Positions 22,863 through 36,319 of a stretch of 64,000 nt of DNA are shown here, one piece after another (the stretch's first letter is position 1; every line of letters starts with the position of its first letter). The notes below the pieces were generated by a model, which saw only the letters and a list, made by a program, of their open reading frames with translations, searched no databases and was not told the origin of the DNA. Source of the stretch: Streptomyces sp. SID8374 (GTDB lineage Bacteria; Actinomycetota; Actinomycetes; Streptomycetales; Streptomycetaceae). The stretch is from positions 1,116,001 to 1,180,000 of the forward strand of contig NZ_WWGH01000001.1 of assembly GCF_009865135.1 (NCBI RefSeq). The letters run 5' to 3'. The position numbers and the translations under genes were made by a program.

Positions 22863-23948
22863 TCAGCCGATCTCGGCACCGTAGGCGGCGAGCGCCTCGG
22901 GGACCGGCTGGAAGAACGTCGTACCGCCCGAGGAGCAGTCGCCGCTGCCGCCCGAGGTCAGGCCGAGCGCGGTGCTGCCCGCGAAGAGGGCGCCACCGCT
23001 GTCGCCAGGTTCGGCGCAGACCGTCGTCTGGATGAGGCCGTTGACGATGTCGCCGTTGCCGTAGTTGACCGTGGCGTCCAGCGCGGTGACCTCACCGGTG
23101 TGCACCTGGGTGGTGGAGCCGCTGCGGGTGACCTGCTGGCCGACCGTCGCGTCGCCCGCCTGGGTGATCTCCTGGGTGGAGCCGTCGTAGAGGTTGACCT
23201 CGCTCGGATGCTCGACGTCCGAGGTGTACTTGACCAGGCCGTAGTCGTTCTCCGGGAAGCTGGAGCCCTCGTTCGCCCCGATCTCCGAGCCGCCCTGGGT
23301 GTCCGACCAGCTGGTGACCGACTCGGTGCAGTGGCCGGCGGTCAGGAAGTACGGCTCGCCGTCCTTGACCACGTTGAAGCCGAGCGAGCAGCGGGAGCCG
23401 GAGCCCCAGATCGCGTCGCCGCCCGCGATCAGCGGCTTGAACTCGCCCTCGGTCTTGTTCAGTTCGGCCTTGCCGCCGAGCCCTTCGACCACGGCCGAGA
23501 GCTTCTTCCAGGCCGCGCCGTCGACCGTGCGGTCGGCGGTGACGAGGACCTTGTTGCTCACCGGGTCGACGGCCCAGGAGGTGCCCGGGATCGTCGCCTT
23601 GTCGGTGAGGGTCTGCCGGGCCGACTTCAGCTCGGCGAGGGAGTGCTCCACGACTCTGGCCTTGCCGCCCGCCTGGCGGACCTGCTCGGCGGCGGCCTCG
23701 TCGACGACGTTCACGACGAGGGCCTTCGCCTTGCTGTCGTAGTACGAGCCGGCCGCGTCCGCGCCCAGGTCCCGGTCGAGGGTGGTGGCGAGCTTTCCGG
23801 CCGCGTCCGCGTTGAGCGTCTTGACCGCGAACTGGGGTACTTCGTCACTGGCGTTCGCACTCTGGAACGTGAAACCCGCTACGACCAGGGCGGCCACGGC
23901 CGATCCGGCCACCGTCGCGCGCTTCCTGGATATGCGTCGATGCTTCAA
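22863..23948 (-). CDS. Secreted chymotrypsin-fold serine protease (S1E, streptogrisin family) with prodomain
   Basis: A 361-aa preproprotease. The signal peptide ([22 protein letters not shown]) is followed by an alpha-lytic-type prodomain of about 140 aa and a mature domain starting near IAGGDAIW at residue 174. The triad is His206 (TAGHCT), Asp235 (NDYGLV) and Ser317 (GDSGG). Cysteines 187/207 and 311/338 form the family disulfides. The start is the rare TTG at 23948, placed ideally after AGGAGG; no ATG or GTG fits as well. The prodomain acts as folding chaperone and is cut off outside the cell. Specificity cannot be read with confidence. Confidence 0.9.
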
Positions 23949-24423
23949 CTTCGACCTCCTGTGGGGCCGTGCACGGAACAAGTGGGGTGCTCGTACACGG
24001 AGGATGGGGCGCCCACTATTCCGAGGGGGCCAGTAGCACACAAGGTCGACTTCCAGACGTGCACACGACACCGACGCTTCAGGCGCGCGACGTTCACTTA
24101 CCCGCGGTCATGCCATGTCGGTTCCGTTCGCGAACACCCGGTGCAACCATCGACGGCCCCTGGGTGAGGACTAGTCCTGTCCGGTATTCGCCCCTGCCGG
24201 TCCGGATGTTGTACGCACCCGTCCGGATCGAGACGGAAATCGTCCGCCACAAGCACCTCGGGACCTTCACAGATCCTGCCTCCGGAGGACCGGCGGACGG
24301 CCCGGCCGCACGCCGGTAAAGGAGTCCCCGTAATTGCCCTGATGGGTCATCATCGAGAAGGCGGCAACACGCCGGGGCACACCGTGCCCGGGCCGGCCGG
24401 GTGACCGAGCTGAGGAGGCGCGG
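23949..24423. other. Intergenic region between divergent protease and hydrolase genes
   Basis: 475 bases with no coding signal and locally lower GC, especially 24160-24260. It must contain the promoters for the S1 protease (left) and the alpha/beta hydrolase (right). No repeat or clear -35/-10 pair stood out. Confidence 0.45.
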
Positions 24424-25332
24424 GTGCGCAATCGGGTGCGCGCGGCGGACGGGCGGCATCTGATGGTGGAGCGGCTGGGGGACCCCCGCGGCAGACCGGT
24501 GTTCCTGCTCCACGGGACACCGGGCAGCAGGCTCGGGCCCGCTCCCCGCGGCATGGTCCTCTATCAGCGCCGTACGCAACTGATCACCTACGACCGCCCG
24601 GGGTACGGCGGCAGCGACCGGCAGGAGGGGCGCCGGGTCAGCGATGTCGTCGAGGACGTCCGGGCGATCGCCGACTCGCTGGGGCTGGAGCGGTTCGCCG
24701 TCGTGGGCCGTTCCGGCGGGGCCCCGCACGCGCTGGCCTGCGCGGCGCTGCTGCCCGAGCGGGTCACCCGTACCGCCGCTCTGGTCACCCTGGCCCCCTG
24801 GGGCGCGGCCGGTCTCGACTGGTTCGACGGGATGGCCGCGTCCAACGTGCTCGCGTACTCCACGGCCGCAGCCGATCCGGACTCCCTCGCGGAGTCGTTC
24901 ATCGTCCGCTCGGCGCAGATCCGGCAGGACCCGGTCCGGCTCCTGGACGATCTGCGCCGGGAGCTGACCGACTCCGACCGGATGGTGGTCAACGACGCGG
25001 GGATCCGGTCCATGCTGCTGCGCAACTACAGCGAGGGGCTGCGCACTTCGGCGTACGGCTGGATCGACGACGCGATCGCGTTCTGCAACCCCTGGGGGTT
25101 CGATCCGGCCGGCATCACCGGCCGGGTGCTGCTCTGGCACGGGGTGAAGGACGTGTTCTCGCCGGTGGGCCACTCCCGCTGGCTCGCCGGGCAGATCCCG
25201 GGCGCCACCGCCGTACTGGAACCGGCGGCGGCGCACTTCGACGCGCTCTCCGTACTCCCCCGCATCCTCAACTGGCTGCTGGACGAGCGGGAGCCCCCGG
25301 GCGAGCCGCTGCCCGCCACGGCACCGGGGTGA
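24424..25332 (+). CDS. Alpha/beta-fold hydrolase, cytoplasmic
   Basis: A 302-aa hydrolase without signal peptide. VFLLHGTPGSRLGP forms the oxyanion loop, YDRPGYGGSDR the typical strand-4 region, and VVGRSGGAPHAL the nucleophile elbow with Ser97. LLWHGVKDVFSPVGHSRWLA provides the acid, and AAAHFDAL the catalytic histidine near the C-terminus. The elbow is G-R-S-G-G, a common variant of G-x-S-x-G. The GTG start has AGGAGG at about 10 bases. It ends just before the fxs operon's downstream end, facing it. Substrate unknown; proline iminopeptidase-like and haloalkane-like members share this fold. Confidence 0.85.
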   Translation: MRNRVRAADGRHLMVERLGDPRGRPVFLLHGTPGSRLGPAPRGMVLYQRRTQLITYDRPGYGGSDRQEGRRVSDVVEDVRAIADSLGLERFAVVGRSGGAPHALACAALLPERVTRTAALVTLAPWGAAGLDWFDGMAASNVLAYSTAAADPDSLAESFIVRSAQIRQDPVRLLDDLRRELTDSDRMVVNDAGIRSMLLRNYSEGLRTSAYGWIDDAIAFCNPWGFDPAGITGRVLLWHGVKDVFSPVGHSRWLAGQIPGATAVLEPAAAHFDALSVLPRILNWLLDEREPPGEPLPATAPG

Positions 25333-25469: not shown

Positions 25470-28400
25470 TCACACGGCCAGCGGTTCCAGTTCCCGCCGG
25501 AAGCGCCGCTCGTCCCGGGCGACCTGGGTCAGCGGGTGCTCCTCGCCGAGCTGCCGGGCCAGCTCGCCCAGCAGCTCGGCCCGCACCTGCGCCGCCTCCT
25601 CCTCGCGCCCCATCGCGTCCAGCGTGACCGCCATGTTCGAGATCATCGCCAGGGTCTCGGGGTGGTGGGCCCCCAGCGCCGCCGTCAGCTGCGTCGCCAG
25701 CCGCTGCTCCGTCTCCAGCACCAGGGGGAGGTCGCCCCGGACGGCCGTGGCGTTGGCCAGGTTCATGACGCAGAAGAGCGTGTTCGGGTGTTCCCGGCCG
25801 AACCGCTCCCGCATCGAGGCCACCACCAGCGTCAGGATCTTCTCCGACCGCTCCGCCTCCCCGGTCCCCGAGAGGTAGACGCCCAGGTTGTTCTGGGCGG
25901 CCAGGGTGTACGGGTGCTTCTCCCCCGGCACCTTCATGTACTGGTCCACCACCTCCTGGGCGGTGTCCCGGGCCTGGACCGCATCCCCGGCGGCGAACAG
26001 GTCGGCCGCCAGGTTGAGGTCGCAGGCCAGCGAGTCGGGGTTGGCGGAGGTGTACTTCGCCCGGTACCGGGCGCGGGTGGCGACCGTCAGCCGGTGGGCG
26101 TCCTCGAACCGGCCGGCCCGCCGCAGCGACACCGCCAGGCTCTTGGCCGCGCTCAGCGTCGTCGGGTAGGTGCGGCCGAGCGTCTCCTTGAAGCTCTCGT
26201 AGGTGCGGCTGAGGAGGCCCACGGAGTCCTCGTACCGCCCCACCTCCCGCAGGTCGCGGGCGAGGTTCATGGCGGAGGAGAGGGAGTAGGGGTGCTTGGC
26301 GCCGAGCACCTCGGTGCGCCGGTCGTAGACGTCCTGGTCGATCTCCCGGGCCCGGGCGTACTGGCCGATGCTGCGCAGGTTCAGGGCCAGGTTGTTGGCG
26401 GCCGCCAGGGTCCTGGGGTGCGAGTCGTGGAAGATCTGGCTGAAGCCGTCGTGGGCCTCGGTGGCCAGCTCGATCGCCCGGCCGTAGTCCCCGAGCAGCC
26501 CCAGGTCGATCGCCAGGCTGCTGGTGGTCATGTACGTGTGCGGGTGCTCGGGGCCGAGCACCTCCCGCTGGCGGCGCAGGGTGAACTCGTCGAGTTCCTT
26601 GGCCTCCACGTAACGCCCCCGCGTGCGCAGGATGTTGGAGAGGTGGAAGCAGAGGTAGAGGTACTGGAGGTCGCGCTCGCCCAGCATCTCCAGCCAGATC
26701 TGCCGCAGCTCCTCCCCCAGCGTCCCCGCGGTGCTCACGTCCCCGCGCTTCCACAGGTAGCGGACCCGGTCGATCAGGAGCCTGCGGGTCTCCGGCTCCT
26801 TGCAGTGGCGGGCGTCGGAGGGGCCCAGGTGCGGCCAGATCGTGGCGAAGCGCGGCCAGGTCTCCGGGTTGTCGATCGGCTCGTCGTCGTCGGGCCGGGC
26901 GCCGGCCAGGATGCGGTGGACGACGTGGCGCGCCTCGCGCTGCTCCTCCTCGGTGAGCTGGGCCTTGATCACCGCCTGGACGAGTCGGTGCACCTGGATG
27001 GAGTTGGAGACCTGGTCGACCTTGGCGAGGGCGAACCGGCCGATCTCCCGGATGACCCGGCCCAGCACCAGCTTCTCCTGGAGCGAGGAGTCGTACGGCT
27101 TCAGCGCCTCGATCATCTCCTTGCTGTAGAGGAGGTTGGCGGAGATCGGCTCGGGGGCGAAGAAGGCGCAGAGCTGGAGGAGGCGCACCGCGGCGGGCGA
27201 GCGTTCCCGGAGCCGGGCGATGGAGATGTTCCAGGTCGCGGCGACCGGTTCCGGGTAGCCGGCGGGCTGGTTGAGGGCGAGCACCTGCGGCGCCTGCCGG
27301 GCGAGCTGTTCGAGGTAGGTGTCGATAGGGGTGGCGGTCTCCGCGATCCAGGCCGCCGCCTGCTCCACGGCGAGCGGCAGGTCGCCCACGGCGGTGGCCA
27401 CCTGGTCGGCGTCCTCGTCGCTCAGCCCCGGGGCCCGGCGCTGGAGGTGTTCGACCGACTCCTCCCGGAGGAAGACGTCGACGGGCAGCGCGTCCCCGTG
27501 CTGGGACCAGCTCTGGTTGCGGGAGGTCACCAGGATGTGGCCGGAGCCTCCTTGCGGGAAGAAGCGGCGCAGCGTCTCGGGGTCGTCGGCGTTGTCGAAG
27601 ACCAGCAGCCAGCGCTCCGAGGGCACCCCGCGCCGCAGCAGGTCGACGGCCTCCTGGGAGGCGGCCGCCATGTCCTCGCCGCCCTGGGCGCCGAGCCGGA
27701 CGGCGAGTTCGGCCAGCGAGGCGACCACGTCGTCGCCCTGCTCGGACGATATCCACCAGACCAGGTCGTAGTCGGCCATGAAGCGGTGCACGTACTCCAG
27801 GGCGACCTGGGTCTTGCCGACGCCGCCGAGCCCGTACAGGGTCTGGGGCTGCGGCAGGACGACGGCCATGCCGCCGCCGAGCTGGTCGCGCATCCGCTCC
27901 AGGACGAGGGAGCGGCCGGTGAATCCCGGGTTGCGGGGCGGTACGTTCCAGATCCGGGGGACGGTGCCGGGGAAGCGCGGTCCGGGCGAGACCCCGTCGG
28001 CGGGCTGCACCGGCCGGTCCAGGGCCCGCATCAGGGCGGTGGTGGCGTGCACCTCGTCCAGGCGGAAGAGGTCGACCGGGTTGCGGTCGATGTACGGGGC
28101 GGACAGCCGTACGTCCCCGACGCGCAGCGGCAGCAGCTGGCGCCGCCCGCCGCCCGGGTCCTCCGCGACGGCCCGCTCCCACAGGTCGACCGCGCGCTGC
28201 GACTTGAGATAGGCGCTGGAGAGCAGCACCACGGTACGGGGGGCGCTCGCGGCGGTGGCCGCCGGTTCGGGCGCGACCGGTTCGGCGGAGACGTCGCGCG
28301 GGACGACCCGGAAGCCGGCCCGGGTGAGGACCGATTCGATCCAGTCGGCCCACATCCGGTTCTCCGCCACATAGCTGAGGAAGAGGTCGGCGGGCAGGGC

Positions 28401-29402
28401 GGGCCGGCGCCGGGTGAAGGCGTCGCGGATCCGCAGGCGTACCTCTTCGCCGACCGGGGGCATCGAGGTGATCTCGCGGTCGGTGATGACGGCGGTGAGC
28501 CGTTCGAAGGCGGAGAGGAGGGAGTTGGTGAGCCCGGCCTCGTCGCCGAAGGTGGCGAGCGTCTCCTCGTAGGCGTAGTAGGGGCGGTAGGGGATCTCCA
28601 CCGCGCCCCAGTAGGCGGTGAGTTCGTCGCCGGACAGGTCGCGGGGCAGCCGGTCGAACTTGAGCCGGGCCAGCGCCCGCCCGGCGTCCGCCTTCTCCTT
28701 CTCGCCCTCGTCGATGCGCATGGGCACGGGGAAGATGGCGATGGGGCGGCCGGTGTAGCGCTCGGCGATCTGGCGGGCGACGGAGGCGGCGCCGTCGATG
28801 GACTGGTCGCTGAGGGTGAAGCAGTCGACGAGGACGTCGGGGAGGTGGACGGTGCAGATGTCGGCGATGTCGCTGAGGCCGGTCCGGCTGTCGATGAGGA
28901 CGTAGTCGTAGTTGGTCTTCATGTCCTCGCGCAGCGCGTCGAAGAAGTGGCCGCCGCCGAGCCGGTCGTAGAAGTTGTCCCAGTCGAAGGTGGAGACGGT
29001 CGCGGAGTATTCGCGGTTCTGCCGTCCGGCGGAGACGAAGTCGAGGGTGCCGCCCTGCGGGAACTCCCAGCCGAGCGCCTCCGGGGTGAGCGAGACGGCG
29101 TGCGGCTGGATGCGGGCGTAGTCGCGGTGCCAGTCCTCCGCGCGCTGGGCGGGGCTGGTCGCGGCCCAGGCGTACTCGGTGATCAGGTCGATCACGCCGG
29201 TGGTGGCGCCGAGGGTGGCGGGGTCGAGGAAGGGGTGGAAGAACCGGTGCAGCCCGGGGGCCTCCAGGTCCCAGTCGACGGCGAGCACCCGCTTGCCGTT
29301 GGCGGCGAGGATCCAGGCGGTGTTGGCCAGGGCCATGGTGCGCCCCGTGCCGCCCTTGTACGAGTAGAAAGTGACGATGCGCCCGTCACGACCGGCACTC
29401 AT
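25470..29402 (-). CDS. fxsT: FxsT: ParA-like NTPase - TIR - NB-ARC - TPR protein of the FxSxx-COOH RiPP system
   Basis: A 1310-aa multidomain protein. Residues 1-330 are a MinD/ParA-like ATPase with deviant P-loop YSYKGGTGRT (14-22). Residues 337-465 are a TIR domain (PADLFLSYVAENRMWADWIE) with candidate catalytic Glu409. Residues about 490-800 are an NB-ARC STAND ATPase: Walker A GLGGVGKT at 524-531, Walker B LLVFDNADD at 599-607, and DLPLAVEQAA. The rest is about ten TPR-like repeats of the kinesin-light-chain type (LGxxHPxTLxxxxNLA). This is a bacterial NLR-like sensor. It starts by ATGA overlap with fxsC. The chain could detect a ligand through the TPRs and trigger TIR NAD cleavage; that is inference. 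Confidence 0.92.
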   Translation of the reverse strand: MSAGRDGRIVTFYSYKGGTGRTMALANTAWILAANGKRVLAVDWDLEAPGLHRFFHPFLDPATLGATTGVIDLITEYAWAATSPAQRAEDWHRDYARIQPHAVSLTPEALGWEFPQGGTLDFVSAGRQNREYSATVSTFDWDNFYDRLGGGHFFDALREDMKTNYDYVLIDSRTGLSDIADICTVHLPDVLVDCFTLSDQSIDGAASVARQIAERYTGRPIAIFPVPMRIDEGEKEKADAGRALARLKFDRLPRDLSGDELTAYWGAVEIPYRPYYAYEETLATFGDEAGLTNSLLSAFERLTAVITDREITSMPPVGEEVRLRIRDAFTRRRPALPADLFLSYVAENRMWADWIESVLTRAGFRVVPRDVSAEPVAPEPAATAASAPRTVVLLSSAYLKSQRAVDLWERAVAEDPGGGRRQLLPLRVGDVRLSAPYIDRNPVDLFRLDEVHATTALMRALDRPVQPADGVSPGPRFPGTVPRIWNVPPRNPGFTGRSLVLERMRDQLGGGMAVVLPQPQTLYGLGGVGKTQVALEYVHRFMADYDLVWWISSEQGDDVVASLAELAVRLGAQGGEDMAAASQEAVDLLRRGVPSERWLLVFDNADDPETLRRFFPQGGSGHILVTSRNQSWSQHGDALPVDVFLREESVEHLQRRAPGLSDEDADQVATAVGDLPLAVEQAAAWIAETATPIDTYLEQLARQAPQVLALNQPAGYPEPVAATWNISIARLRERSPAAVRLLQLCAFFAPEPISANLLYSKEMIEALKPYDSSLQEKLVLGRVIREIGRFALAKVDQVSNSIQVHRLVQAVIKAQLTEEEQREARHVVHRILAGARPDDDEPIDNPETWPRFATIWPHLGPSDARHCKEPETRRLLIDRVRYLWKRGDVSTAGTLGEELRQIWLEMLGERDLQYLYLCFHLSNILRTRGRYVEAKELDEFTLRRQREVLGPEHPHTYMTTSSLAIDLGLLGDYGRAIELATEAHDGFSQIFHDSHPRTLAAANNLALNLRSIGQYARAREIDQDVYDRRTEVLGAKHPYSLSSAMNLARDLREVGRYEDSVGLLSRTYESFKETLGRTYPTTLSAAKSLAVSLRRAGRFEDAHRLTVATRARYRAKYTSANPDSLACDLNLAADLFAAGDAVQARDTAQEVVDQYMKVPGEKHPYTLAAQNNLGVYLSGTGEAERSEKILTLVVASMRERFGREHPNTLFCVMNLANATAVRGDLPLVLETEQRLATQLTAALGAHHPETLAMISNMAVTLDAMGREEEAAQVRAELLGELARQLGEEHPLTQVARDERRFRRELEPLAV

Positions 29403-30715
29403 AGGTCCTCCGCTTCCGTCGCAGGGTCGTGCGGGTCGGGTGTGTAGCTGGTGTCGCCCATGGGGCCCGTCAGCCGGGTCCGTTCGCCGTGTCCTCCGCC
29501 GGCGACCGGCGGATAGGCCTTCGCGTGCCGCAGGTACTGCTGGGCGGCGACCTCGACGACCTGGGGCAGGATCTGGCCGAACGCCTCCATCGTCGGCACC
29601 CCCCGGGCCGCGGCCCGGCAGAAGGTCCGCCCGTGGTGCATCTTGGCCGGCATGGTCGCTTCGAGCTTCTCGGTCAGTTCGGCCTCCGCGGCCCGGCTCT
29701 GGTGGTCCTCGCGGCTCCACGGCACGACCATGGTCACCCAGGGCCGGTCCTCGGCGTCGAAGGCGGCGAGCCTGCGGCGGCGGTCCTCGTCCTGGAGGGC
29801 CCAGCGGTCGACGAGGAGGATCTCGGGGGTGGTGGGCGGCGACTTGCCCTCGGGCCGCCCCGACTCCTCGTCGAACGAGGTGATCTGGGCCTGGTAGTTG
29901 AGCGAGCGCACCAGCTCCTCGGCGACATAGGCCAGCGGGCGGGCGGCGGAGGGGTGGTAGGGGTTCCAGTCCTGCGGGTGGTCGCCGTAGTAGTCGCTGT
30001 CGCGCCCGTCGGGCAGGTCGTGGCGGGTGGGTGCGGCGATGGTGATCCGCATCGGGCGGGGGGCGCCGACCCCGCTGCTCGGGGAGCCGAAGGCGCTGGG
30101 TGCGAGGCGGTAGTCGACGGGTCTGCCGGTGTCGATGCGGACGGTGTCGGCGACCCGGACGATGCGCTTGGCCAGTTCGTAGACGGCCCGTTCGTACTCC
30201 TGGGCGAAGAGTCTGAGCTTGATGAGGCCGTAGAGGCCGTCGGTGACGTAACGGTCCCCGAAGTCGCGGTGGTTGAACTGTAACCGCTCGGCGGATCCCG
30301 GGAGTTGGCTCGGCGGCACCGGCACCCACAGGGCCGGGACGATCGCTTCGGCGGGCTGGTTGGAGCGGGCCCGGTGGTGGATGGCGCGCTGTTCGAAGGC
30401 ATGCCACTCCTTGCCGCACATCTCGCTGGCGAAGTAGCGCGGGGAGAACAGCGGGACGAAGACCCGGCAGGTGGCGAGGACTTCACCGAGCCGCTCGGAC
30501 CAGCCCTCGCCGGAGCGTATCTCGCGGTCCATGAAGCCGGCGGACGCGCCCGCGGGAAGATCGGTCATGGCCATCACATGACCGCAGAGGTCTCGAAAAA
30601 GCCGTTCGACCCACATATCGGGATCGGTGCCGCCGGCGTACCCCGGAGTGTGCGCGTAACTCAGAAAGAAGTACGGCCGATGGTCCGCCGCTCGCTGCTG
30701 CGTCGATGCGTGCAC
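29399..30715 (-). CDS. fxsC: FxsC: TIR-like protein of the FxSxx-COOH RiPP system
   Basis: A 438-aa protein. The N-terminal TIR-like domain (RPYFFLSYAHTPG, GFMDREI, CRVFVPLFSPRYFASEMCGKEW) keeps the glutamate expected for NADase activity at residue 103. The C-terminal half (MRITIAAPTRHDLP, DWNPYHPSAARPLAYVAEELVRSLN, ILLVDRWALQDEDRR) is the FxsC C-terminal domain, found only in this system. A TTA codon lies at 30281-30283 (residue 145), making translation dependent on the bldA tRNA. GTG 30715 follows GGACGGGGG; an ATG at 30745 is possible but lacks a site. Its stop overlaps the fxsT start. Confidence 0.9.
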   Translation of the reverse strand: MHASTQQRAADHRPYFFLSYAHTPGYAGGTDPDMWVERLFRDLCGHVMAMTDLPAGASAGFMDREIRSGEGWSERLGEVLATCRVFVPLFSPRYFASEMCGKEWHAFEQRAIHHRARSNQPAEAIVPALWVPVPPSQLPGSAERLQFNHRDFGDRYVTDGLYGLIKLRLFAQEYERAVYELAKRIVRVADTVRIDTGRPVDYRLAPSAFGSPSSGVGAPRPMRITIAAPTRHDLPDGRDSDYYGDHPQDWNPYHPSAARPLAYVAEELVRSLNYQAQITSFDEESGRPEGKSPPTTPEILLVDRWALQDEDRRRRLAAFDAEDRPWVTMVVPWSREDHQSRAAEAELTEKLEATMPAKMHHGRTFCRAAARGVPTMEAFGQILPQVVEVAAQQYLRHAKAYPPVAGGGHGERTRLTGPMGDTSYTPDPHDPATEAEDL

Positions 30716-30856
30716 ACGACCCCCGTCCTGTGTGAGCACTCGCATCCGAGGAGTAGGAAAGGAATGCGAGCGAATTCATCATTCCGGAGCGGACTGCGCT
30801 CCACCCCCCTGCCGTTCGGTCATTGAACGCTACTTTTCAGTCAACCGCGCCCGGGT

Positions 30857-33154
30857 TCACCGCACTGCGGCGCGCTCCGTATCGGTCTTGCAACCGTTCC
30901 TCCCGGATGTCCCGTGTGTACCGTTGATCTCTTTGCGCATCCCGGCGAGCAATTGTTTTCCGTCGACGGTCGTTTCGGCCGCTTCTTCGATCAGGTCGAA
31001 CGCTTGCGGAACTCCGGCGAGGAACCGTGGTGCGAAGAGAGCGAGACCGACCCGCTCGTACGTTTCCGACAGCAGCCGGGAGAACGGAACGGGCTCCTCC
31101 TGCCAGGGCATCCGATGATCCCAGGAACCGTCCGAGGCGTACAGGTCCGTGACCTCGGCCAGCGCCCGCAGTTTCGCCCGGCGGAACCCGCGCAGCAGCG
31201 CGAGCGCCAGGGTGTGGGCGTCCCCGCCGGCCGCGATGCCCAGCGCCCCGTACCCGTGGCGCCCCACCTGGACCGGCGCACCCTCCGCGAGCGGGGTGAC
31301 CGTGGTGAGGACGGCGGCCGCTTCGGCCGCCTGGCCGGGGACGGCCCGCGCCAGCAGCTCCCAGGCCTGGGCGAGGGAGGCGGACCAGGCGTCGGCGGCC
31401 TGGGGAGCGAGCCGGCCGGCGGCGGGCGTGTCGAAGCAGGTGCGGTACGGATCGAGATCGTCCCGTACGAGTGTGGGTACGGGGCCGGGGCCGGGCTCCC
31501 CGGCGGCTGCCCCGGGACGGCGTACCGGCGACCAGTTCGGGCCCTCCCCCGCGCCGCGCGCGATGTGGAGCGCGCCCCCTTCGGTCCGGACGGTGAACCC
31601 CTCGCCGTCCGCCCGCACCAGGGCCGTGCCCGTCTCCCCCGTCCCGCCGACCCGGACCTCCCCGAGCGTCGGCAGGAAGAGGCGGCCGTCGCGGTGGACC
31701 ACCGGGACGGCCAGGTCGAGACCGGCGTGCACGGCGGCGGCGGCCACCGTGGCGGCGAGCCGCTCCACCGGGGGGCCCTGCACCGGCCGGCCCGCCCGTA
31801 CCGCGTCCAGGGTGGAGAGCAGCCAGGTGCGGGTGTAGGGGTGGGCGAGGACCCGGTCGATCCCCTCCTGCCCGGCCGGGTCGCTCTCCAGCTCGGCGGC
31901 GAGCGCCCACGCCGTCTCCCAGGCCTCCCCGCCGCTGCCGTCGAGGCTGTCGTGGAGGTGGGCGAGCAGGGTGCGGGTCAGATCCTGCTGGGCGGTGAGC
32001 AGTTCGTACGGGTCGCGGACGGCGGGCGACTCGGTGGCGGCGGCCGTCCGGTCCTCGATGCCCCGGATCAGCGCGGCCAGGTCGGCGCAGTAGACGGACG
32101 GGTTGTCGAAGCCGTCCGGCGAGCGGTAGCGGTGGGTGTAGAGCCCGCCGCCGCATGAGCGTACGACGGGGCAGCGGCGGCAGGTCTCGCTGACCCCGGC
32201 CAGGCCGAGCTGGCGGGCCCGGACCCCGGGGTGCGCCGCCACCTCGTCGAAGGTGTGGGTGAAGACGTCGAACCCGGTGGCCGCGGCGCCTTCGTAGGCG
32301 CTCTTGAGGGAGTCGACCTGCTCCAGCTGGCCGTCGGTCTCGACGACGACCAGGTCCGTGGGGGCGAGCCCGAGGGATTCGGTGAGGCTGGGGCCGCCGC
32401 TCAGGGTGGAGAGCACGGAGGAGAAGAGGCGGACCGGCACCGGCCGCCCCTGCTCCTGCCAGCGGTCGAAGACGGTGAGGAGCCACTCGGCGTAGGCGGT
32501 GGGGGATCCGTCCGGGCGGGGCGGGGGCTCGTCCCAGGTGGCGTGCGGGAGGAGGAAGTCGATGAGCGGCGGGTCGAGTTCGGTGAGCGCGTCGAGGACC
32601 GCGACCGGGTCGTTGGCGATGTCGATCGTGCACAGGAGGCCGAGATCGAGGTGGCGGTAGCGCTCCTGCCGGAGCAGCTCCACGGCCTTGAGGACCAGGG
32701 GGTGGCTGCTGCGCCCGTCGGCGTAGCGGCGGTGGCGGTCGTTGGCGGCGCGGTCGCCGTCGAGGGAGATGCCCACCTTGACGTCGAACTCGTCGAACAG
32801 GTCGAGATAGCGGGGGCTCAGCTGGAGGCCGTTGGTGTGGATGCGCAGATCCAGCTCGGCGATTCCGGCGAGGGCCGAGGTGAACTCCTCGCAGACCAGG
32901 CGCAGTCGGGCCGGTCCGGCGAGCAGGGGCTCCCCTCCGTGCAGGATCACTGTCACGGAGGGCAGGGCGTGGGTCCTGGCGTGTTCAGCCAGGCGTTGAG
33001 CCGTCCGGGAAACAACATGGTCAGAGATTGCCTTCGGCCGGGTTCGCCAGCTCTGATCAGCATGTTCGTAGACATAACAATGGTCGCAGGCCAGATCGCA
33101 CCTGCTGTGAACCTTCAGAACGATTTCGCGGAATGGGACCGCGGGTCCTGTCAT
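30857..33154 (-). CDS. fxsB: FxsB: radical SAM/SPASM peptide-modifying enzyme with inactivated HExxH-type extension
   Basis: A 765-aa protein. CDLACDHC (Cys19, 23, 26) binds the radical-SAM cluster, LHGGEPLL is the GGE motif, and CRRC-x5-C with YC (325, 328, 334, 356) is the SPASM-type auxiliary cluster region. The family is known to forge a cyclophane crosslink between an aromatic ring and a residue two positions on, here the Phe-x-Ser end of FxsA. Residues about 390-740 resemble the HExxH peptide-modification domain, but the zinc motif is replaced by RGFRR at 655-659, so this part should be catalytically dead. It follows fxsA by 50 bases. Confidence 0.93.
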   Translation of the reverse strand: MTGPAVPFREIVLKVHSRCDLACDHCYVYEHADQSWRTRPKAISDHVVSRTAQRLAEHARTHALPSVTVILHGGEPLLAGPARLRLVCEEFTSALAGIAELDLRIHTNGLQLSPRYLDLFDEFDVKVGISLDGDRAANDRHRRYADGRSSHPLVLKAVELLRQERYRHLDLGLLCTIDIANDPVAVLDALTELDPPLIDFLLPHATWDEPPPRPDGSPTAYAEWLLTVFDRWQEQGRPVPVRLFSSVLSTLSGGPSLTESLGLAPTDLVVVETDGQLEQVDSLKSAYEGAAATGFDVFTHTFDEVAAHPGVRARQLGLAGVSETCRRCPVVRSCGGGLYTHRYRSPDGFDNPSVYCADLAALIRGIEDRTAAATESPAVRDPYELLTAQQDLTRTLLAHLHDSLDGSGGEAWETAWALAAELESDPAGQEGIDRVLAHPYTRTWLLSTLDAVRAGRPVQGPPVERLAATVAAAAVHAGLDLAVPVVHRDGRLFLPTLGEVRVGGTGETGTALVRADGEGFTVRTEGGALHIARGAGEGPNWSPVRRPGAAAGEPGPGPVPTLVRDDLDPYRTCFDTPAAGRLAPQAADAWSASLAQAWELLARAVPGQAAEAAAVLTTVTPLAEGAPVQVGRHGYGALGIAAGGDAHTLALALLRGFRRAKLRALAEVTDLYASDGSWDHRMPWQEEPVPFSRLLSETYERVGLALFAPRFLAGVPQAFDLIEEAAETTVDGKQLLAGMRKEINGTHGTSGRNGCKTDTERAAVR

Positions 33155-33160
33155 TCCACC

Positions 33161-33166
33161 AGTCTA
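33161..33166 (-). promoter_or_regulatory. Possible leaderless -10 element for fxsB
   Basis: TAGACT on the minus strand ends 6 bases before the fxsB ATG, which has no separate ribosome binding site. This spacing fits a leaderless transcript, giving fxsB its own promoter within the operon. No good -35 accompanies it. Confidence 0.35.
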
Positions 33167-33204
33167 GTCCAGCGTTCCGTACCGAATTCCGACGGTGCGG
33201 GGGG

Positions 33205-33372
33205 TCAGAGCGCCGAGTTGAAGGTGGAAATACGGGAGGGGCGGCCGTCGTCCGCGGGGATCACTCGCGCAAGCTTCCGGACAGCGGAGCCACCGGAAAT
33301 GTCGATCTTGGCGAGCGGCACACGGCTCTTCTTCGCATCAGCGAAGAGAGGGGATGATTCGTAGGTCTTCAC
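33205..33372 (-). CDS. fxsA: FxsA: FxSxx-COOH ribosomal peptide precursor (55 aa)
   Basis: A 55-aa peptide starting MKTYESSPLFADAKK and ending RISTFNSAL. The last five residues, F-N-S-A-L, fit the defining F-x-S-x-x-COOH pattern, and the middle (VPLAKIDISGGSAV, ARVIPADDGRPS) is the usual leader-like region. FxsB is expected to crosslink Phe51 to Ser53. The GTG start at 33372 has AGGA five bases upstream. It lies 50 bases before fxsB in the same direction and is too short for most gene finders, yet it is the substrate on which the operon acts. There is no obvious cleavage site or exporter. Confidence 0.93.
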   Translation of the reverse strand: MKTYESSPLFADAKKSRVPLAKIDISGGSAVRKLARVIPADDGRPSRISTFNSAL

Positions 33373-33417
33373 GGCCGTCCTAGGGGGGCTCGTTCCGGTC
33401 AGGGGGACAACACCGGC

Positions 33418-33477
33418 AGTTGCACCATTGCAGTGCCTGGCGGCACGACTTTACTCTCATGACCTAGGTGTGCAACT
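33418..33477. promoter_or_regulatory. Inverted repeat AGTTGCAC-N44-GTGCAACT in the fxsA/SLATT divergent gap
   Basis: Perfect 8-base arms at 33418-33425 and 33470-33477 bracket the middle of the 211-base region between the divergent fxsA and SLATT genes. This placement suits a shared operator with two half-sites, though the spacing is wide. The rest of the gap is comparatively AT-rich; I cannot assign -35/-10 elements with confidence. Confidence 0.35.
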
Positions 33478-33583
33478 CGTGTCGCACCCTCGTAAGCCGA
33501 GTGACATACGGGACTGCTCCAAATGGTTCGGAATCCTTCATTCCGACAACGGAGCCCCGACTACATGGGATACGGGAGTGAAC

Positions 33584-34513
33584 ATGACGGCGATTCCCGG
33601 ACCTCTTCAGAGCATGGTCTTCAGGAACGCCGACCTGCCCGCCCTCTTCCACCGTACGGACGCCATCGCGGTGGCCCGCCAGCGCGAGGCCGTGAACACC
33701 ACCAGGGCCCAGCTGGCGCTGCTCGTGGCGGGCACGGTGCCCGCGGCCCTCCCCTGGCACGCCGAGGACGGTCTCGCCGTCCAACTCCTCTACGGCTCAG
33801 CGGTGTTGGCGTACCTGGGTGTCCTGTTCACGACGTACCTCGCCTCCCGCCGCAAAGCAAAGTCGCACTGGCAACTCAACCGCTCAGCAGCGGAGTTCAT
33901 CAAGTCCCTCTGCTGGCGTTACGCGGTCCACGGTTCGCCCTTCGAGAGTGCGGCGCCCCACCCCGAGGCGCTCTTCGCCAACCGGCTGGAGGAGGGGCTC
34001 CAGGAGCTGCGGAAGGTGGGCTGGGCCGATCCGCGCGAGGCGGTGGAGGAGGCCGACGGCGCGGTCATCACCCCGTCCATGCGGGAGTTACGGGACAAGG
34101 CCTTCACCGTACGCAAGGAGACGTATGTACGGGACCGGCTGATCGAACAGCGGCGGTGGTACCGCAGACGGCGGCTGGTCTCCCGGCGCGGGGCGCTCGT
34201 CTGGTCCGGGGCGATCGTCGCGCTGACCCTCCCGGCGCTGGCGCTGAGCGTGGCGCAGGCCTTCGGGGTGGGGCGCTCCCTCGGGCTGACCGGGGTGCTG
34301 TCGGCGGCCGCCGCGGCCTGCCTCGCCTGGAACGAGCTGCGCCGCCACCATCCGCTGATCTCCGCGCACTCCCTGGTGGAGGACGACCTGGAGTCGATGC
34401 AGGCCGCGATGGAGACCACGCTCACCGAGCGGCAGTGGCCGGTGGCGGTCTTCGAGACCGAGCGGATCGTCTCGCCGGAGCACACGGACTGGCTTGTGCG
34501 GCACCGTACCTGA
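33584..34513 (+). CDS. SLATT-domain (DUF4231) membrane protein
   Basis: A 309-aa protein with two pairs of membrane helices: LALLVAGTVPAALPW and LLYGSAVLAYLGVLFTTYLA near the N-terminus, then ALVWSGAIVALTLPALALSV and LTGVLSAAAAACLAW, each followed by a charged helical stretch. This double arrangement is that of SLATT_3 plus SLATT_1 proteins, predicted pore-forming effectors associated with SLOG and SMODS nucleotide sensors. Residue 169 is encoded by TTA (34088-34090), so translation needs bldA. The ATG at 33584 has GGGAG five bases upstream. It is divergent from fxsA and ends 7 bases from the converging SLOG gene. Confidence 0.82.
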   Translation: MTAIPGPLQSMVFRNADLPALFHRTDAIAVARQREAVNTTRAQLALLVAGTVPAALPWHAEDGLAVQLLYGSAVLAYLGVLFTTYLASRRKAKSHWQLNRSAAEFIKSLCWRYAVHGSPFESAAPHPEALFANRLEEGLQELRKVGWADPREAVEEADGAVITPSMRELRDKAFTVRKETYVRDRLIEQRRWYRRRRLVSRRGALVWSGAIVALTLPALALSVAQAFGVGRSLGLTGVLSAAAAACLAWNELRRHHPLISAHSLVEDDLESMQAAMETTLTERQWPVAVFETERIVSPEHTDWLVRHRT

Positions 34514-34520
34514 GCGGCTG

Positions 34521-35000
34521 TCACACCCGCTCCACGCCGTCCCGCCAGATGACGGTGACCGGGCGGCCCAGCGTACGGGCATAGGTCACGATGTCACCGG
34601 TGCCGCCGAGGCCCCGGGCCGGGCGGCCGTCCCAGACGGCGAGCAGCAGGTCGCAGTGGTCGGCGATGTAGGCGCCCGCCGCGTAGTACGCCTCGTCGGT
34701 GGAGTGCGGGAAGTGCAGCCGGACCTCCTGGGCGGCGCGGGACTTGAGGAGGCGGTAGCGCTCCAGGTCGGCGGTGGACTCGAAGCAGGCCTCGTAGTCG
34801 CCGCTGGGGATCACCACGGTCAGCTTGGCGCCGCAGTCGAGGGCGAGGCCGGCGAAGAGCTGGTCCGCGCCGACCGCCAGGCTGGAGAGCGCCTCGGTGG
34901 CGCCGTCGAGTCCGCACAGGGCGGCCCGCAGTCCGGCGAGCACATGGGCCCGGGCGCCGGCGGGGATGGTGCGGTGACCGGTGATTCCGATGCGATTCAC
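34521..35000 (-). CDS. SLOG-like Rossmannoid nucleotide-sensor protein
   Basis: A 159-aa Rossmann-type protein. The N-terminal IGITGHRTIP loop, AVGADQLFAGLAL, VVIPSGDYE, CDLLLAVWDG and GGTGDIVTYAR are the pattern of SLOG/LOG-related ligand-binding domains, in which G-x-x-G-H and GGTGD line a nucleotide pocket. SLOG proteins are predicted sensors of NAD derivatives or nucleotide signals in conflict systems, often with SLATT effectors, which fits the neighbour. The GTG start follows AGGTCC, a modest site. It converges on the SLATT gene with only 7 bases between. Enzymatic activity is not excluded. Confidence 0.75.
   Translation of the reverse strand: MNRIGITGHRTIPAGARAHVLAGLRAALCGLDGATEALSSLAVGADQLFAGLALDCGAKLTVVIPSGDYEACFESTADLERYRLLKSRAAQEVRLHFPHSTDEAYYAAGAYIADHCDLLLAVWDGRPARGLGGTGDIVTYARTLGRPVTVIWRDGVERV

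Positions 35001-35191: not shown

Positions 35192-36319
<1,128 letters not shown>

Follow-up and report, generated by a model that had tools for sequence, protein, structure and literature searches.

A linked set of fxs, SLATT, SLOG and hydrolase genes in Streptomyces sp. SID8374 and its relatives: a candidate peptide-coupled defence module

We analysed a 64,000-nucleotide stretch of DNA from Streptomyces sp. SID8374 (NCBI RefSeq assembly GCF_009865135.1, contig NZ_WWGH01000001.1, positions 1,116,001 to 1,180,000 of the forward strand), hereafter the window. It carries the four-gene fxs operon (fxsA-B-C-T, on the minus strand from 33372 to 25470) of an FxSxx-COOH peptide system, bordered by genes for a SLATT protein, a SLOG-fold protein and an alpha/beta-hydrolase, and we find that these genes keep together across Streptomyces genomes. 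The features are as follows, in positions of the window:

33205-33372, minus strand: fxsA, FxSxx-COOH precursor peptide (TIGR04268, 33.4 bits, cut-off 28), C-terminus FNSAL
30857-33154, minus strand: fxsB, radical SAM/SPASM cyclophane synthase (TIGR04269, 599 bits)
within 30857-33154, minus strand: fxsB extension, an inactivated HExxH domain (NF040587, 494 bits)
29399-30745, minus strand: fxsC, TIR-like protein (TIR_2) with an FxsC C-terminal domain (NF040588, 239 bits; TIGR04276, 257 bits)
25470-29402, minus strand: fxsT, NLR-like protein (NF040586, 1041 bits; also NF047398)
33584-34513, plus strand: SLATT gene, tandem SLATT_3–SLATT_1 (Pfam SLATT_3, 130 bits; SLATT_1, 112 bits; cut-off 26.3 each; also NCBIfam)
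34521-35000, minus strand: SLOG-fold gene, single-domain protein of 159 aa, predicted nucleotide sensor
24424-25332, plus strand: alpha/beta-hydrolase gene (Pfam Abhydrolase_1, 65 bits), convergent with fxsT
33421-33461, plus strand: conserved 41-bp element in the divergent region between fxsA and SLATT, near-invariant in 22 aligned close loci including the window

The first-pass annotation, made from the letters alone, had described the four leftward genes as a complete Fxs system, and this is confirmed by the precursor, FxsB, FxsC and FxsT all exceeding the NCBI curated cut-offs. The fxsC and fxsT genes overlap by 4 bp. FxsT combines a KGGVGR-type ParA/MinD domain, TIR_2, NB-ARC (35 bits) and TPR_12 (146 bits); the NB-ARC with an intact P-loop, followed by C-terminal repeats, makes it an NLR-like STAND NTPase, and the P-loop pattern is present in 66 of 71 called FxsT proteins. 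Its TPR part is similar to kinesin light chain, whose TPRs bind peptides. The annotation had also named a divergent SLATT-type gene, which Pfam identifies as the SLATT tandem starting 211 bp from fxsA. The SLATT protein has three hydrophobic stretches and is a predicted membrane effector that may form pores. Convergent with this gene, at a gap of 7 bp, is the gene at 34521-35000; its product has no NCBIfam, Pfam or PADLOC family at E 0.01, and its structure model (mean predicted local distance difference test score, pLDDT, 93.5) matches YpsA, DprA, ShosA and LOG, with YpsA and DprA the closest. The protein therefore has the SLOG (LOG/DprA) fold and its earlier label, SLOG-like, was correct; nucleotide binding is predicted. 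The annotated inventory was sound for the genes it listed, but the hydrolase gene had been overlooked.

To describe the linkage, each of 199 genomes of a genus sample was searched with SLATT, FxsC and SLOG, and the positions of the hits were compared. Genus counts include SLATT hits above 200 bits, SLOG hits above 140 bits and FxsC hits above their own cut-off; 13 SLATT rows below 200 bits (fragments and distant SLATTs) were excluded. The surroundings of 55 SLATT loci were fetched, the window's own locus not being refetched. We also used 74 named loci from a scan of GTDB species genomes, by title Streptomyces in all but one, [Kitasatospora] papulosa, with strains that overlap those of the genus sample, and a class sample of 296 genomes, which has three genomes (G000, G056 and G173) in common with the genus sample; G and L numbers are our handles for genomes and loci.

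The SLATT gene was found at 56 loci in 55 of the 199 genomes, all of which also hold SLOG, as well as FxsC somewhere in the genome. FxsC lies within 6 kb of SLATT at 51 of the 56 loci, and two contigs that end with FxsB in view near SLATT (L073 and L091) raise the number at which fxs adjoins SLATT to 53. The distance from SLOG to SLATT is at most 217 bp at 51 loci and larger at four, and at G182:C2 SLOG is not near. Random placement would yield approximately 0.08 fxs neighbourhoods (56 loci x 12 kb / 8.5 Mb); it should be noted that, because the genomes are related, the counts are not independent and this figure is no p-value. Both FxsB and SLOG adjoin SLATT at 73 of the 74 named loci. The nine class-sample genomes with SLATT are all Streptomyces, and FxsC lies on the same contig at less than 8 kb in 9/9; the SLATT of G379 is in two pieces (130 and 104 bits). 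The hydrolase gene accompanies fxsT in 47 of the 55 fetched SLATT loci and is also present in 11 of 22 fxs-only or broken loci; 57 of 59 called homologues have G-x-S-x-G. That fxs is linked to SLATT, SLOG and the hydrolase gene is thus well supported, and we are highly confident of it. A separate TIR_2 gene (L101:15357-16574) is convergent with fxsT at the usual position of the hydrolase gene.

By their flanking genes, the 55 fetched loci fall into a group of 40, a group of nine and six loci that stand alone, one of them lacking a flank, so that seven surroundings can be distinguished, each of them with fxs-bearing loci. The group of 40 is flanked by dnaE, S1 proteases and DUF1684. Gene order also differs between loci. 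At nine of them the fxs operon is inverted, and the hydrolase, fxsB, fxsC, fxsT and SLATT genes follow each other in one direction (for L086, no hydrolase gene was seen in the stretch), with SLATT 49-89 bp behind fxsT in 9/9, as in one operon. A third order was found in G387: fxsA, fxsC, fxsT, fxsB, a fusion of HExxH and AAC(3), SLATT, and then a convergent SLOG. In a tree of FxsT proteins (70 rows), the deep part of which is unsure owing to long branches and in which fxs-only loci were taken as found, one clade consists of SLATT loci in 49 of its 52 rows, and the SLATT label requires 6 changes versus a mean of 16.8 for shuffled labels. The SLATT loci L087 and L101 stand apart on long branches.

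The DUF1684 flank gene was found in 144 of the 199 genomes, and 20 loci without an intact SLATT were hand-picked there, in addition to G005. Eighteen of the 20 (L107-L122, L124 and L125) are empty of fxs, SLATT and SLOG; one of these, L119, holds a relative of the hydrolase. Partial sites retain FxsT only (G029) or fxs with a SLATT fragment (G167). At the same site, G005 has kept the final 5% of fxsT, half of SLOG and a hydrolase gene that is damaged, having lost fxsB, fxsC, most of fxsT, SLATT and the other half of SLOG together. Because these remnants lie at the same site, between flanks (the dnaE, PLA2, S1 and DUF1684 genes) that are 93-97% identical to those of the window, one deletion is the simplest account. 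Secreted alpha-lytic-type serine protease genes with a Pro_Al_protease prodomain flank the module in the window (22863-24071 and 35192-36265); this pair may be a mark of the site or an old duplication.

The first-pass annotation had proposed that fxs and SLATT/SLOG form one module, and had named shared core synteny as the finding that would undo this proposal. The linkage recurs at several sites, persists where the operon is inverted and holds in a third gene order, which argues for the module, as does the joint absence at 18/18 chosen empty sites; the linkage is not absolute, given fxs-free loci in 3/56 and 1/74 cases. Since fxs, SLATT and SLOG remain neighbours at different chromosomal sites and despite rearrangements, they likely function as one defence module. 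The strongest alternative is that SLATT and SLOG are a self-contained pair, for example of a toxin-antitoxin-like kind in the way that ShosA restrains ShosT, which sits beside fxs and receives no signal from FxsC. One would not expect such a free pair to adjoin fxs at 53/56 loci, across seven surroundings and in three gene orders, or to follow fxsT in what looks like one operon; moreover, at L101 SLATT adjoins fxs with no SLOG nearby, which is hard to reconcile with a needed antitoxin. We consider this alternative unlikely.

Two TIR domains could make a signal, and the first-pass annotation had assigned this role to the NLR-like and TIR proteins jointly. In the alignment of FxsC (73 rows), the Glu of CGKE, the putative catalytic Glu of TIR enzymes, is retained in 72 rows and replaced by Gln in one, whereas in the alignment of FxsT (72 rows) no row has Glu at the equivalent column. 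The proposal therefore fits FxsC better than the TIR of FxsT: as far as these alignments indicate, FxsC is likely the only active TIR and a candidate NADase (NAD, nicotinamide adenine dinucleotide), and the TIR of FxsT is likely a scaffold.

Peptide ends were sought by a motif search near fxsB, in which FxSxx was built in and the other positions were free; such an end was found in 50 of 52 genus SLATT loci with FxsB (the exceptions being L093 and L099) and in 72 of 73 named loci (the exception being L200). In the 72 named loci, the ends are FNSAL (41), FSSAL (19), FNSSL (10), FSSSL (1) and FNSAV (1), and variation this small is more in keeping with an internal ligand than with an arms-race toxin. 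An HExxH string is present in 6 of 72 called FxsB genes, the window's FxsB being of the inactivated form. An AAC(3)-like acetyltransferase gene, absent from the window, occurs in 30 of 55 SLATT loci and in 7 of 21 fxs-only loci. Its usual place is between fxsB and fxsC (e.g., L074:9272-10018, Antibiotic_NAT 246 bits); in L238 the enzyme is fused to an HExxH beta-hydroxylase domain. This enzyme looks like a peptide tailoring enzyme rather than a drug resistance factor. Another gene, of approximately 227 codons and with no Pfam match, lies between fxsB and SLATT at L054:11986-12669, in nine other fetched SLATT loci, and in 19 of the 74 named loci.

The peptide could instead be an exported toxin or signal, with SLATT/SLOG and the hydrolase as self-protection or response. 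Radical-SAM cyclophane peptides of other classes include antibiotics, such as darobactin, and the hydrolase could serve as an immunity enzyme. However, no transporter gene was recognised among the named module genes, an export system would not be expected to include an NLR-like FxsT and a TIR protein, and the peptide end is nearly uniform; we regard an exported product as improbable.

The 41-bp element has no second exact copy in its own genome. We searched for its 20-bp core, allowing up to four mismatches. The core adjoins SLATT in two fxs-less loci (L062 and L066), lies on the fxsA side where another gene intervenes (L054, L055, L057 and L058) and is present on both sides in L059; at this stringency the nine inverted loci lack it, as do L087-L101 and some close loci, L048-L053, L060 and L076 among them. 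Shared control of fxsA and SLATT by the element is possible.

Taken together, and in the reading that we favour, the module may be an intracellular alarm that ends in the opening of the cell's own membrane; every step of this scheme is inferred, and we put the scheme at somewhat below an even chance. FxsB would crosslink the F-x-S end of FxsA, with an HExxH hydroxylase or AAC(3)-like acetyltransferase assisting in other genomes. Once modified, the peptide may sit in the TPR groove of FxsT as a guarded ligand. An invader that disturbs the peptide or its production would cause the NB-ARC of FxsT to oligomerise, its TIR probably acting as a scaffold, and the oligomer would gather and activate FxsC, whose TIR would convert NAD to an ADP-ribose-type signal. 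The SLOG protein would bind this signal and release or gate SLATT, which would make the membrane permeable; by trimming or degrading the peptide, the hydrolase may set or reset the system. The more specific proposal, that a bacterial NLR guards a radical-SAM-crosslinked ribosomal peptide and that disturbance makes FxsC produce an NAD-derived messenger by which SLOG-regulated SLATT opens the membrane, is tentative. The least probable alternative, a developmental or stress regulator of Streptomyces instead of defence, agrees with most copies being at one chromosomal site near dnaE (40 of the 55 fetched loci) and with no phage record matching the module SLATT, but not with a module that is present in 55/199 genomes only, is lost at the same site in others and consists of parts typical of conflict systems.

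Several observations weigh against the defence module and its mechanism, in addition to the kinship of the genomes, which makes the linkage counts non-independent. SLATT and SLOG occur free of fxs at three of the 56 genus loci (G057, G158 and G182:C26), the first two with SLATT and SLOG only and with the flanks of the dnaE/DUF1684 site; the sole exception among the named loci, L203, combines SLATT and SLOG with an AAC(3)-like gene and has no fxs. Conversely, 15 of the 70 genus-sample genomes with FxsC have no SLATT, and many fxs loci have neither SLATT nor SLOG. SLOG is not close to SLATT in L101 and is 10.7 kb away in L099. Outside the genus, 16 class-sample genomes have FxsC and none of them has a tandem SLATT of this type; the SLATT–SLOG arm is therefore an accessory of some Streptomyces. 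The site in the window is a core-chromosome site rather than a defence island, and PADLOC named no defence system for the module proteins, its matches being the candidate PDC-M28B on the ParA part of FxsT (80 bits) and a weak pVip on FxsB. The structure model of FxsC (pLDDT 59) is too poor to place its Glu; in many FxsT rows the residue preceding the lost Glu is Asp or Glu.

Should FxSxx peptides be coupled to a membrane effector arm, the peptide would gain a testable intracellular partner, and the system a measurable output in the form of NAD loss or membrane leakage. A post-translationally modified peptide would be a component of a bacterial NLR circuit, and tandem SLATT proteins would be exchangeable output ends for TIR signalling, on chromosomes and plasmids.

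More distant SLATTs were found elsewhere. Five class-sample genomes outside the genus have SLATTs of 28-35% identity and three have traces near 22 bits; FxsC is present in 0/8. Distant tandem SLATTs are also found on 54 plasmids (22-28% identity among the 20 matches listed). A TIR gene is directly convergent with SLATT in eight of ten plasmid records inspected, at the position that SLOG has in the window; in the H5 record the TIR genes are farther away, and the H10 record is hardly annotated. Because three of the eight share one TIR accession, these cases are not all independent. Scans of five of the plasmid TIR proteins assigned four to ThsB_TIR and one to TIR_2. The convergent cassettes of SLATT_3–SLATT_1 and TIR (L220, L221, L223, L224 and L226-L229), in Rhodococcus, Vibrio, Klebsiella, Enterobacter and Yersinia hosts, are likely a small TIR–SLATT system. 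Among distant SLATT loci of the genus and class samples, a Pfam TIR gene is found among the scanned neighbours at 5 of 12 (L104, L105, L230, L233 and L235); the actinobacterial tandem SLATTs lie beside TIR–WD40 proteins (L104, L105 and L235) or a ThsB-type TIR gene (L233). These pairings of TIR and SLATT count in favour of the proposed chain.

FxSxx systems, including stand-alone peptide-processing ones in which an AP-ATPase carries an inactive MinD/ParA-like domain, have been predicted to be conflict systems (Kaur et al. 2020, PMC7159879). The window module resembles them in its FxSxx precursor, its radical SAM/SPASM enzyme and its TIR–AP-ATPase–TPR protein with a degenerate ParA/MinD-like domain, and differs in lacking the zincin-like metallopeptidase by which those systems free the peptide, the HExxH domain of its FxsB being inactivated (NF040587). 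Section 24 of that paper names no SLATT, SLOG, hydrolase or AAC(3)-like partner. In the literature searched, where subscription papers are under-represented, we recognised no paper linking fxs to SLATT/SLOG and found no tested role for FxSxx peptides. TIR–SLATT neighbourhoods have been published for phages, with SLATT predicted to respond to ADP-ribose derivatives (PMC9503650), and SLATT has been described beside the TIR effectors of GAP1-type systems (PMC7159879); the logic of SLATT with TIR is shared with the window module, whereas those descriptions include no radical-SAM peptide. ShosTA (ShosA structure 8zva), in which ShosT is the partner of ShosA, differs in that the SLOG of the window is short and single-domain, and its partner is SLATT.

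Thoeris (ThsB TIR with ThsA SIR2–SLOG) is similar in that a TIR enzyme is thought to feed a SLOG-bearing output, and distant tandem SLATTs adjoin ThsB-type TIR genes. FxsC, however, matches no PADLOC family at E 0.01 and is therefore not a ThsB-type TIR by that measure; SIR2 is absent from the six window proteins scanned (NCBIfam, Pfam and PADLOC), and the single-domain SLOG is not fused to SIR2 or another effector, as it is in ThsA. In the window module, SLOG is a protein separate from the effector, which is a tandem SLATT, and an NLR-like protein and a modified peptide are placed upstream in the proposed chain. What is new here, in comparison with these systems, is the addition of a SLATT–SLOG arm, a hydrolase and an AAC(3)-like gene to the already predicted fxs conflict core; if an NLR does guard the peptide, the chemistry of ribosomally synthesised and post-translationally modified peptides, NLR sensing and Thoeris-like signalling would be united in one system.
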